From: a virus
Reading direction: 5' to 3' (one strand)
Length of the DNA stretch: 32,962 bases
Virus record (IMG/VR): IMGVR_UViG_3300042914_004346
Coordinates: 1-32,962 of that record
Made by a program: the position numbers and the translations under genes
Notes under the pieces: model-generated
The model's input: the letters and a program-made list of their open reading frames with translations, nothing else
Told to the model about the DNA's origin: nothing
The model's database searches: none
Shown here: positions 4,860 to 12,479 of the stretch, piece by piece
Layout of the letters: every line of letters begins with the position of its first letter
How positions within the stretch are numbered: the first letter of the stretch is position 1

Positions 4860-4919
4860 GTTACAAAATGTTAAGAAAACAAAGCACGGCGTTGCAGTGC
4901 CTCTTCCATCGTCCATAAT
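4860..4919 (+). promoter_or_regulatory. Promoter cassette copy 1 (HLR1-like box, -10)
   Basis: The box GTTACAAAATGTTAAG (4860-4875) lies 38 nt upstream of a -10-like CATAAT (4914-4919). It is the copy closest to the cyanobacterial HLR1 (RpaB) pattern of two GTTACA-like half sites separated by 2 nt. Transcription would start near 4926, which excludes the upstream ATG at 4919 and favours the start at 4943. Confidence 0.5.
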
Positions 4920-4942
4920 TGCATTGTTCAACTCATTCCGAC

Positions 4943-5257
4943 ATGTTCAACCCATTCCGACTACTGTTCGGTCCCGTCCAAAGCGATGCCAAATCAGCAC
5001 GCGGGGGACACCTTATCAGGTTTATCCATATTGACGGAAATGTCTATTCTCCTAGCATTTGCTCACCTACAGGAGTGGAGTTCTTCACTGAAGACGACAG
5101 CACTATGCGTCCATGCCTAGAAGGCCACATTGCGCCTAATGGCGTGACGGTGTTGCAAATTGCCATTGCGCTGGCCATAGCCAATGGCATAATCACCATT
5201 GGCGGACAGCCTGGCTCTAGCGAGCGCCGCACGAGAAGCGCGATCGGACTAAACTGA
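4943..5257 (+). CDS. Hypothetical protein, 104 aa
   Basis: Start chosen at 4943 because an upstream in-frame ATG at 4919 overlaps the -10 hexamer. The protein begins MFNPFRLLFGPVQSDAKSAR. A C-terminal hydrophobic stretch (VTVLQIAIALAIANGIITIG) could be a membrane helix or buried core. Family not recognised. It is the first gene after promoter cassette copy 1 and shares one base with the next start (TGATG). Confidence 0.6.
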   Translation: MFNPFRLLFGPVQSDAKSARGGHLIRFIHIDGNVYSPSICSPTGVEFFTEDDSTMRPCLEGHIAPNGVTVLQIAIALAIANGIITIGGQPGSSERRTRSAIGLN

Positions 5258-5490
5258 TGCAACGCTACAATCTATGGGTTGTCAATTCCGAACGGGCGCT
5301 AGCTATTTGCTGGGGCTCCCAATCTGAGATGAATGACCTCGCCTTGCTCGCCTGCATCGAAGAGAATGTTTACATTCTCCCTGACGGCGAGGAGCCGCAA
5401 GGCTATTGTCATCGGCTGCAATCCATGCCCCTCTGGACTAGGGTGGCTCCAGCCAAATGCGACAACCATTCCATTACGCCAATCCCATGA
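5257..5490 (+). CDS. Small hypothetical protein, 77 aa
   Basis: A 77-residue protein beginning MQRYNLWVVNSERALAI, with a compact central part containing Cys19 and Cys33. It ends in a Pro/Ile tail. Unrecognised. The TGATG at 5255-5259 joins it to the preceding gene, and its stop overlaps the next start by 4 nt (ATGA at 5487), so the three form one coupled unit. Confidence 0.6.
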   Translation: MQRYNLWVVNSERALAICWGSQSEMNDLALLACIEENVYILPDGEEPQGYCHRLQSMPLWTRVAPAKCDNHSITPIP

Positions 5491-5828
5491 ACGAGCAACG
5501 CCTTCTTTCAGTTTTTGGAGAGCAGTTGGATGTTTTGAGCAATCGGGTCCGCCTGCTGAGCATGCGCGTAGAAGCGCTGAGCAGGCGCGTAGAAGCGCTG
5601 GAGCCACCACAGGCCCTGCCAAAGCAGTCGCCTACGCTGGTGGATCTCTTAGCGGGCATAATCGAAAAATGGCGCATTGATGACCCGAACGGTTTTGCGC
5701 AACACCGTTCGCGTCATTTAATCTGCGAAATGGCAGCGTGGCTGCGCGAAAACGACTCTAGGCTCAATATGGGCGGAGACGCTGCCGAGGTTGCCGAGCT
5801 GCTCGAACGTGAGGCCAGCCGCCGATGA
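5487..5828 (+). CDS. Hypothetical protein with N-terminal coiled coil, 113 aa
   Basis: The start at 5487 (ATGA overlap) is preferred over an in-frame ATG at 5457, which would overlap the previous gene more. Residues 4-40 form an amphipathic coiled coil with two near-identical RVEALSRRVEAL-type heptads. These are encoded by a short direct repeat (GCGTAGAAGCGCTG at 5566 and 5587). A globular helical part follows. Likely a self-associating soluble protein; function unknown. Confidence 0.6.
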   Translation: MNEQRLLSVFGEQLDVLSNRVRLLSMRVEALSRRVEALEPPQALPKQSPTLVDLLAGIIEKWRIDDPNGFAQHRSRHLICEMAAWLRENDSRLNMGGDAAEVAELLEREASRR

Positions 5829-5950
5829 TGCCATCACGCTATCTGATCGGCGGGCTATTCCTGGCCCTCGCCGCTTCAACTTCTAGCCTTTCTTTTTCTG
5901 TTCCATTTTTGATCATTGGTATTTTTGCTGTAATTCCATGGAAACTATGA
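5825..5950 (+). CDS. Membrane microprotein, 41 aa
   Basis: Frame beginning MMPSRYLIGGLFLALAAS and ending in IPWKL. Two hydrophobic stretches (residues about 7-20 and 26-38) suggest a small hairpin membrane protein. It overlaps the gene before by 4 nt and the gene after by 4 nt (ATGA at 5947), which supports its being real. A holin-like or membrane-signalling role is possible but unsupported; no endolysin is nearby. Confidence 0.5.
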   Translation: MMPSRYLIGGLFLALAASTSSLSFSVPFLIIGIFAVIPWKL

Positions 5951-6576
5951 TGAGTTCCTCTGCAATGCTTACTAAAAACACGGCAAAACTTCGCGCTGAA
6001 GTTGCAGCGCACGTCGCAGCCGATACTATCATCCAAGGCGATTACTGGGATCCCTTGACCAATAGGGGTTGCTTTATTGGCTGCCTCGCTCATAGCTACG
6101 ATCCGGCTATCAATGAACAGAACTACGGATTGCCAATGATGCTTCAACGCATTGCCGAAAATATCTTTGAAGCGTTACCCGAAAACGAGGCAAAGATGTT
6201 TTTTGCTGCATTGCCTGATGCAGTTGCTTGTGATGGCAAGGATTTAAGTCTCGTCGCCTGGCAATTTTTGGAAGCGGAATTGCGGTCATTACCACAACAG
6301 GAAAACAAAATACAGGCCGCCATTGACCCCGTGATTGCAGGTATGGCGCGACTGGCTCAAGGGCTGGAATGGAGCGCTGACGATGCGATGGCGGCGTCGA
6401 GGAAGGCCTCGAGGGAGGCGGCGATGGCGATGGCGGCGGCGGCGGCGGCGGCGGCGGCGAGGGCGGCGGCGGCGAGGGCGGCGGCGGCGAGGGCGTCGAG
6501 GGCAGCGGCGGCGGCGCGACTGCGCCAACGCGATCTTTTGCTGAGATTGATCAAGGAGGCGCCGATAGTTGCCTGA
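5947..6576 (+). CDS. Hypothetical protein with Ala/Arg repeat tail, 209 aa
   Basis: Residues 1-135 make a conserved-looking globular domain with the motif DPLTNRGCFIGCLAHSYDPA and a cysteine pair (RGCFIGC), then MLQRIAENIFEALPENEAKM. I recall similar unnamed proteins in other tailed phages. The C-terminus (about 158-195) is a poly-Ala run broken by Arg every 4-5 residues, encoded by a GCG microsatellite. The start at 5947 overlaps the upstream stop; 5938 is an alternative. The Ala/Arg helix would be positively striped and could bind nucleic acid. Function unknown. Confidence 0.65.
   Translation: MMSSSAMLTKNTAKLRAEVAAHVAADTIIQGDYWDPLTNRGCFIGCLAHSYDPAINEQNYGLPMMLQRIAENIFEALPENEAKMFFAALPDAVACDGKDLSLVAWQFLEAELRSLPQQENKIQAAIDPVIAGMARLAQGLEWSADDAMAASRKASREAAMAMAAAAAAAAARAAAARAAAARASRAAAAARLRQRDLLLRLIKEAPIVA
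6421..6516 (+). repeat. GCG trinucleotide microsatellite
   Basis: A run of GCG codons, beginning with two GCG-ATG pairs and then interrupted by AGG every four or five codons (nine GCG, AGG, four GCG, AGG, four GCG, AGG, and so on). It lies in frame inside the 5947-6576 gene. Its base composition differs sharply from the surroundings and opens long shadow ORFs in all frames on both strands. Slippage would change the number of Ala codons without shifting the frame. Confidence 0.9.
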
Positions 6577-6587
6577 CCCCCTGGCCC

Positions 6588-11601: not shown

Positions 11602-11604
11602 ATT

Positions 11605-11656
11605 GTTTCATAGTGTTAAGCCCCCATACGCTGCTCAGTTAATCCTGTGCTAGTGT
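11605..11656 (+). promoter_or_regulatory. Promoter cassette copy 7
   Basis: The box GTTTCATAGTGTTAAG (11605-11620), 4 nt after the previous stop, and -10 TAGTGT (11651-11656), 30 nt apart. It is part of the 49-bp duplication shared with copy 6, so the two genes probably respond alike. Confidence 0.55.
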
Positions 11657-11672
11657 ACGGGAGCATTCAATC

Positions 11673-11921
11673 ATGCATCTCATGAACAAAAAGACAAGAT
11701 CAGGGCTAGCCATAACCTACGCTCCCTTTTGGCTCGTGTGGTTGCCGCCGTCTGACGGCGGCCCCGAACGATTCCCGCACTTGCGAGTTAGCCGGCCGCA
11801 GTCTGGCAACGGAGAACCATTGTCAGAGTCTGAAGCTCTGACTCTATGGTTACATCGTGCCCTTAATTATTGTACGGCATCCGCTGAAGCTGAAGAATAC
11901 TTAAGTTTTCTTTGTGGTTAA
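11673..11921 (+). CDS. Small hypothetical protein, 82 aa
   Basis: Starts at ATG 11673 in the ATTCAATC-ATG context; an ATG at 11682 is an alternative. The segment SGLAITYAPFWLVWLPPSDG is hydrophobic but too broken by prolines to be a sure membrane helix. The C-terminus (ALTLWLHRALNYCTASAEAE) is helical. Unrecognised. Confidence 0.6.
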   Translation: MHLMNKKTRSGLAITYAPFWLVWLPPSDGGPERFPHLRVSRPQSGNGEPLSESEALTLWLHRALNYCTASAEAEEYLSFLCG

Positions 11922-11950
11922 TCTTTTTACATTCTCTCGCATCTCCTCCA

Positions 11951-12436
11951 ATGAACACCACCGCTCCCTTCCGTCTGACACTTGATAGGTTCCCATATGA
12001 CGCTGCTAGGAGGCAGGCAGAAAGGCATAGCCTTACGGTTGTAAGTGTCTGCCATGCTGACATCCCGAAAGGCACTCCATTGATTGACGGTTACGGCAAT
12101 TATATAAAGGCCCGTACAGTATATATAGGGTTGCCTGGCACAATTGAGAAAAATTGTGCCTTTGCGCGTTGCTACTCTACGATCCATCAACTGGTCGAGC
12201 CTGGCACAGCGGAAGCATTGTGCGCCATTGCCGGACACTTACTCTATTTTGATACATTCCATGGCAGCAGACAAGAATATATAGACTACCATAATTCCCC
12301 TTACCGTTTGCTGCCTTATCAACAAGACCAGTTGATAGAATCCTGGCATGAGCACACTACCACCGCTCAGCGTGCCATCAAGTGTCTGCCTGCTGAATTG
12401 ATAGCATGGTTGCGCAGTCTGCGCGATTGTTGCTAA
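11951..12436 (+). CDS. Hypothetical protein, 161 aa
   Basis: The ATG at 11951 (MNTTAPFRLTLDRFPYDAAR) is chosen; the longer frame would start inside the gap after the previous stop. The protein contains several Cys and His residues (VSVCHADIP, CAFARCYSTIHQL, ESWHEHTTTAQ) but no clear metal-binding spacing. The stop codon lies inside cassette copy 8. No obvious promoter precedes it, so it may be co-transcribed with the 11673 gene. Confidence 0.6.
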   Translation: MNTTAPFRLTLDRFPYDAARRQAERHSLTVVSVCHADIPKGTPLIDGYGNYIKARTVYIGLPGTIEKNCAFARCYSTIHQLVEPGTAEALCAIAGHLLYFDTFHGSRQEYIDYHNSPYRLLPYQQDQLIESWHEHTTTAQRAIKCLPAELIAWLRSLRDCC

Positions 12437-12479
12437 GTGTTACGCTCCCATGGGTCAGCGTGCCATGGGAGCGTATAGT
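12429..12479 (+). promoter_or_regulatory. Promoter cassette copy 8 with 13-bp dyad
   Basis: A weaker box, GTTGCTAAGTGTTACG (12429-12444), stands 29 nt before -10 TATAGT (12474-12479). Between and overlapping both is a perfect 13-bp inverted repeat, TACGCTCCCATGG (12441-12453) and CCATGGGAGCGTA (12463-12475), spacer 9 nt. The right arm enters the -10, so a bound repressor would block polymerase. Confidence 0.6.

Follow-up and report, generated by a model that had tools for sequence, protein, structure and literature searches.

Infection by cyanophages depends strongly on light. To our knowledge, no cis-elements joining phage transcription to host light sensing have been described, and our literature search found no paper connecting the response regulator RpaB with phage promoters. 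Among phages, the middle promoters of T4 are a familiar case of a repeated module, in which a box for the activator MotA is combined with a -10. In cyanobacteria, RpaB of the NblS-RpaB two-component system recognizes HLR1, an element with the consensus KTTACAWW-N2-KTTACAWW; activating copies lie at -66 to -45, and RpaB activates photosystem I genes (PMC13421787). Cyanophage genes such as pstS are under the control of another host regulator, PhoB (PMC10976474). Here we describe an HLR1-like box that recurs along a putative early or accessory block of IMG/VR record IMGVR_UViG_3300042914_004346, a cyanophage-like siphovirus contig of 32,962 bp that was analyzed over its full length and is referred to as the window. 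Our best reading of these sequences is that host RpaB, or an OmpR-family paralogue close to it, would drive the block. A conserved HLR1-like box before early/accessory phage genes provides a directly testable link between light and transcription.

Eight boxes and their -10 hexamers

The window contains eight 18-bp boxes (TGTKACAAANTGTTAAGC-like), all on the plus strand between 4859 and 12445. They start at 4859, 7656, 8100, 10110, 10388, 11096, 11604, and 12428 (boxes 1-8), and those at 11096, 11604, and 12428 are divergent members. All eight had been named in an original prediction made from the sequence alone, with starts that differ from ours by ±1. The pattern given there (GTNACAAANNTTAAG) is one base short and does not retrieve the boxes; with up to two mismatches it has 3 matches vs. 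1.65 expected, which is no better than chance. The corrected pattern, TGTKACARAAYRTTAAG, has 8 matches in the window at up to three mismatches (0.38 expected), and 7/8 are boxes. Each box is followed by a -10-like hexamer; counted from the last base of the 18-mer, the distance is 37, 39, 39, 29, 28, 29, 29, and 28 nt for boxes 1-8. The two gap classes proposed earlier, about 10 nt apart, are thus borne out as 28-29 and 37-39 nt. The upstream stop codon was said to touch or lie within most boxes, and at seven of the eight a stop does fall inside the box or no more than 9 nt from its start. The exception is the box at 10110, which is 44 nt from the preceding stop.

Conservation and anatomy of the promoter module

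The original prediction proposed a matrix search in relatives as a check. We built a position weight matrix from the eight window boxes, with Markov shuffles as background, and applied it to 15 relatives identified through the helicase (61-85% identity) and to about 20 close ones identified through the terminase. The 397 kb searched contain 96 sites, compared with 1.0 in the shuffles. The strand is uniform. Loci oriented by the helicase contain 69 sites, every one on the helicase strand; loci oriented by the terminase contain 27, every one on the other strand and so in the same direction of the genome. The consensus of 81 non-redundant boxes is [TC][GC]T[TG]AC[AT]AA-N-TGTTAAGC. TANNNT hexamers 3′ of these boxes peak at gaps of 29 nt (34/81) and 39 nt (19/81), and 71/81 boxes have such a hexamer at 28-30 or 37-40 nt. 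The gap peaks and the conservation support well the earlier proposal of promoter cassettes with an activator-type upstream box in two spacing classes, and the boxes are very probably promoter operators.

The surroundings of the boxes are also characteristic. An open reading frame (ORF) ends no more than 60 nt upstream of 83 of the 89 boxes in the window and its relatives, and for 53/89 the end is within 12 nt, vs. 11% of random positions. Box and -10 are often separated by a hairpin; the mean fold z is -1.45 in the long class and -1.99 in the short class, and z is below -1.5 at a fraction of about 0.43 of box sites. Several of these hairpins resemble intrinsic terminators with a T run, e.g., that at 8122-8148. 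The hairpin stems vary in sequence and thus fit an RNA structure rather than a protein site. The module is an upstream stop touching the box, often a terminator-like hairpin, and then the -10, and it is a reusable promoter unit. The genes behind the boxes, in the window and relatives, form about 50 groups among which no similarity is detectable. Because these genes are mostly unrelated, it is the promoter module that is shared, not the genes. A compact box-terminator--10 module would explain how single accessory genes could be swapped with their regulation kept.

The order of the two classes is also regular. In the window and the inspected relatives, long-gap promoters come first behind the helicase and are followed by short-gap ones. 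A leader, TTGTTCAAMNAAC, is conserved 3′ of the -10 in long-gap promoters of relatives (e.g., L087, L088, L091) and is absent from short-gap promoters, a possible second difference between the gap classes. Several short-gap promoters in relatives are followed by cattcattcat leaders, which are similar to a CATT/ATTC microsatellite at 10850-10890 of the window, 5′ of the ORF at 10891.

Resemblance to HLR1

A likeness of the boxes to HLR1 had been suggested before and is supported here, yet it is better on the opposite strand to the one proposed. On the minus strand the 89 boxes read TTAACANT-TW-GTAACAWW. In this reverse register they match HLR1 at a mean of 11.8 of 16 positions, with one consistent deviation per half, and scrambled half-sites equal the fit of the boxes in 3% of trials. 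The sole consistent departure is base 3 of each half, which is mostly A in this phage family and T in HLR1. Boxes 1 and 2, at 14/16 positions, match the HLR1 consensus better than any other site of the window. A relaxed form of the element, KTNACAN4KTNACA, matches the window exactly at three sites, all of them boxes read on the minus strand (box 1 as TTAACATTTTGTAACA). With up to one mismatch it has 9 matches vs. 3.15 expected. The half-sites are direct repeats with a 10-nt period, as in HLR1. Assuming that transcription starts about 7 nt 3′ of the -10, short-gap boxes are predicted at about -59 to -42 and long-gap boxes at about -69 to -52. The boxes share with the RpaB regulon tandem KTNACA halves with a 10-nt period 5′ of a -10, and their predicted span would be about -70 to -42. 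Apart from base 3, the phage element differs in sitting on accessory genes, where RpaB would bind.

Comparable sites in host promoters and other cyanophages

In Cyanobiaceae, TGTTGACGGGTGTGAAG occurs upstream of psaD, about 38 nt from a TGCTA-type -10. Its minus-strand reading, TTCACACCCGTCAACA, matches the relaxed element at 9/10 positions, in the reversed orientation seen in the phage. This site is the best in 230 nt in 11/11 promoters listed, of 33 in which the box was located. The host psaA has a divergent box, GATTGAACCTTTGTAACT (also given as AGTTACAAAGGTTCAATC), 28-29 nt from TATACT, and its reverse complement contains a perfect GTTACAAA half. With about 38 nt at psaD and 28-29 nt at psaA, both phage gap classes therefore have a photosystem I counterpart. 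We found no clear site in the upstream regions of psaC and psaL.

The box is also found in other cyanophages. S-2L has two 10/10 matches to KTNACAN4KTNACA, in reversed orientation, upstream of S2L_13 and S2L_14; these have C at base 3 of one half, whereas the window family mostly has A. In the T7-like phages P-GSP1 and P-SSP10, the best site genome-wide lies between early genes, with 27 nt to a -10, and outscores all 20 shuffles. A weak minus-strand site near the left end of P-SSP7 is within the range of shuffled sequences and was rejected. Scans of IMG/VR detected the box with the same architecture, including hairpin and -10, in T4-like contigs, where the gene behind it matches the peptidase gene of P-SSM2. 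They also detected it in two T7-like groups: the first is related to P-GSP1, and in the second the RNA polymerase shares 45% identity with the P-SCSP2 enzyme. A spacing test on IMG/VR was set aside. The gap windows 29-31 and 39-41 and the control window 34-36 returned 20, 21, and 27 contigs, respectively, and the control is confounded, with about 17 of its 27 matches coming from one T4-like promoter in which TAGTATTAT gives TAGTAT at 35 and TATTAT at 38. We tentatively suggest, at somewhat less than even odds, that cyanophages of several lineages unrelated to each other, namely this siphovirus family, S-2L, and T7-like and T4-like phages, may have converged on RpaB/HLR1 to control entry into early/accessory expression. 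Infection would then read the photosynthetic redox state directly, in the siphovirus family through a box-terminator--10 module placed on interchangeable genes.

The putative reader of the boxes

Judged from sequence, the reader of the boxes is likely to be a host regulator of the OmpR family, and RpaB is the best candidate, which we favor with some reserve. Early in infection, host RNA polymerase would read the -10-type promoters, with the boxes as upstream operators. Each box would present a tandem repeat with a 10-bp period to the response regulator. Bound RpaB would activate rather than repress, recruiting RNA polymerase to promoters that have a -10 and no evident -35, as at photosystem I genes. 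The hairpin between box and -10 probably terminates the preceding transcript, so that box, terminator, and -10 may form one compact module reused before diverse accessory genes. The accessory block would in this way be light dependent, tracking the light/redox state of the host. Because the box resembles the RpaB site, the virus may time its own genes by the light status of its host. The original prediction described the block as wired gene by gene. This is right only in part, as behind the first box comes a series of about eight genes that overlap.

Several observations weigh against RpaB. The box differs from canonical HLR1 by one base per half, and psaD fits only the relaxed consensus, which was defined after these sites had been seen. 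Scored on one psaD promoter at a time, the phage matrix reaches only weak significance (p about 0.03-0.5), and orthologous psaD promoters amount to few independent observations. The exact phage box, with up to one mismatch, is present in 133/390 cyanobacterial genomes, and promoter context was absent from the 30 matches that we inspected; the exact phage version is therefore not a general or common host motif. No convincing box was found in KBS-S-2A, S-H1, S-LBS1, Syn5, P-RSP2, NATL2A-133, or P-SCSP2. The host of the window virus is likely, though not certain, to be a picocyanobacterium, because cyanophages are among the best relatives of its terminase, head, and portal proteins and its tail protein matches Synechococcus siphoviruses.

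The boxes could instead be bound by RpaA (clock output), PhoB/SphR, or another paralogue of the family, and the block would then follow the circadian clock or phosphate status instead of light/redox. Tandem repeats of similar period are typical of OmpR-family sites, and RpaA and RpaB have common targets (PMC13421787). The promoter-proximal half, TGTTAAGC, resembles one half of a Pho box, and the control of a cyanophage gene by host PhoB (PMC10976474) is a precedent for a phage gene under a host two-component regulator. That case involves a different regulator and site, and one metabolic gene rather than a block with about eight promoters. The boxes fit the Pho box (YTTAACCW with an 11-nt period) poorly: they match the consensus repeats at no more than 11/16 positions, compared with up to 14 for HLR1, and their repeats are spaced 10 nt rather than 11 nt apart. 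Most pstS upstream regions have no match to the phage box, and the best host counterpart precedes psaD, one of the photosystem I genes, a class that RpaB activates. We thus regard another OmpR-family regulator as unlikely. We give still less weight to the possibility that these are middle or late promoters whose boxes are read by an activator encoded by the phage, or by an RNA polymerase factor that the phage specifies. An upstream box with a -10 is used by phage middle promoters elsewhere, and some cyanophages, e.g., S-LBS1 and KBS-S-2A, encode sigma factors. The module is similar to the MotA-type promoters of T4 in its repeated arrangement, but 28-39 nt separate the window box from its -10, a much greater distance. 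We found no match to Trans_reg_C (PF00486) or sigma70 region 2 (PF04542) in the window, and none in 13-14 relatives of up to 49.5 kb, a negative that applies to these two domains in records that may be incomplete and does not exclude other DNA-binding families. This speaks against a phage-encoded reader, and a phage-specific factor would not explain the box in unrelated T7-like and T4-like cyanophages. The unknown phage activator that the original prediction had offered as an alternative is disfavored for both reasons.

It is very improbable that the box, instead of being an operator, belongs to a junction for recombination or gene swapping, or serves as stop codon and terminator in one, and travels with accessory cassettes. 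Stop codons do overlap the boxes, hairpins come next, and the downstream genes are highly variable. A conserved spacing between box and -10, in two classes 10 nt apart, would not be expected of a recombination site, and neither would the box at early promoters of unrelated phages or the psaD counterpart. RpaB or a close paralogue remains our preferred reader.

Individual promoters and other features of the window

The block begins directly 3′ of a DNA helicase gene (ResIII/Helicase_C, phrog_16) at 3458-4858 on the plus strand, which served as the anchor for the relative search. All features listed here are on the same strand. Box 1, TGTTACAAAATGTTAAGA (4859-4876), adjoins the helicase stop codon, which ends at 4858, and its -10-like CATAAT is at 4914-4919. 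Box 2, TGTGACAAAATGTTAAGG (7656-7673), contains the upstream stop TGA and is followed by a terminator-like hairpin (7674-7711; z -2.1, -15.4 kcal/mol) and TATTGT (7713-7718). The intrinsic-terminator-like hairpin with T run mentioned above (8122-8148; z -2.6, -14.4 kcal/mol) separates box 3, CCTTACAAACTGTTAAGC (8100-8117), from TATTGT at 8157-8162. These three are the long-gap promoters. The short-gap promoters start with box 4, TGTGACAGAATGTTAAGC (10110-10127), with TATTGT at 10157-10162, and box 5, TGTGACAAAACATTAAGC (10388-10405), with TATAGT at 10434-10439. Box 6, TATGAACAAACATTAAGC (11096-11113), has the upstream stop TGA inside it and TAGTGT at 11143-11148. Box 7, TGTTTCATAGTGTTAAGC (11604-11621), has TAGTGT at 11651-11656. 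The weakest, box 8, TGTTGCTAAGTGTTACGC (12428-12445), contains the upstream stop TAA and precedes a hairpin (12446-12470; z -2.2, -13.7 kcal/mol) and TATAGT (12474-12479).

Besides the helicase, the window encodes a RuvC-like resolvase, terminase, portal, and major head protein. Cyanophage S-2L is among the best relatives of the terminase, head, and portal proteins, and KBS-S-2A and S-H1 also rank high for head and portal. The tail protein matches solely Synechococcus siphoviruses (S-LBS1, S-CBS1/3). We found no close isolate of the virus. Copies of the phage integrated in, or contaminating, cyanobacterial genomes were considered and rejected, as no close terminase was found there.

The block also contains several repeats. 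A GGC/GCG-rich repeat at 6390-6520 encodes a long alanine/arginine run in the ORF at 5938-6576. Dense GAGAC/GTCTC (TGAGACT) repeats at 8740-8970 and 9880-10110 flank a gene at 9484-10065. In a gene-poor part of the block, AGTATGCACAAGCCAGTCAGG (9067-9087) and CCTGACTGGCTTGTGCATACT (about 9335-9356) form a near-perfect inverted repeat with arms about 250 nt apart, and an extra partial copy lies near 9143.

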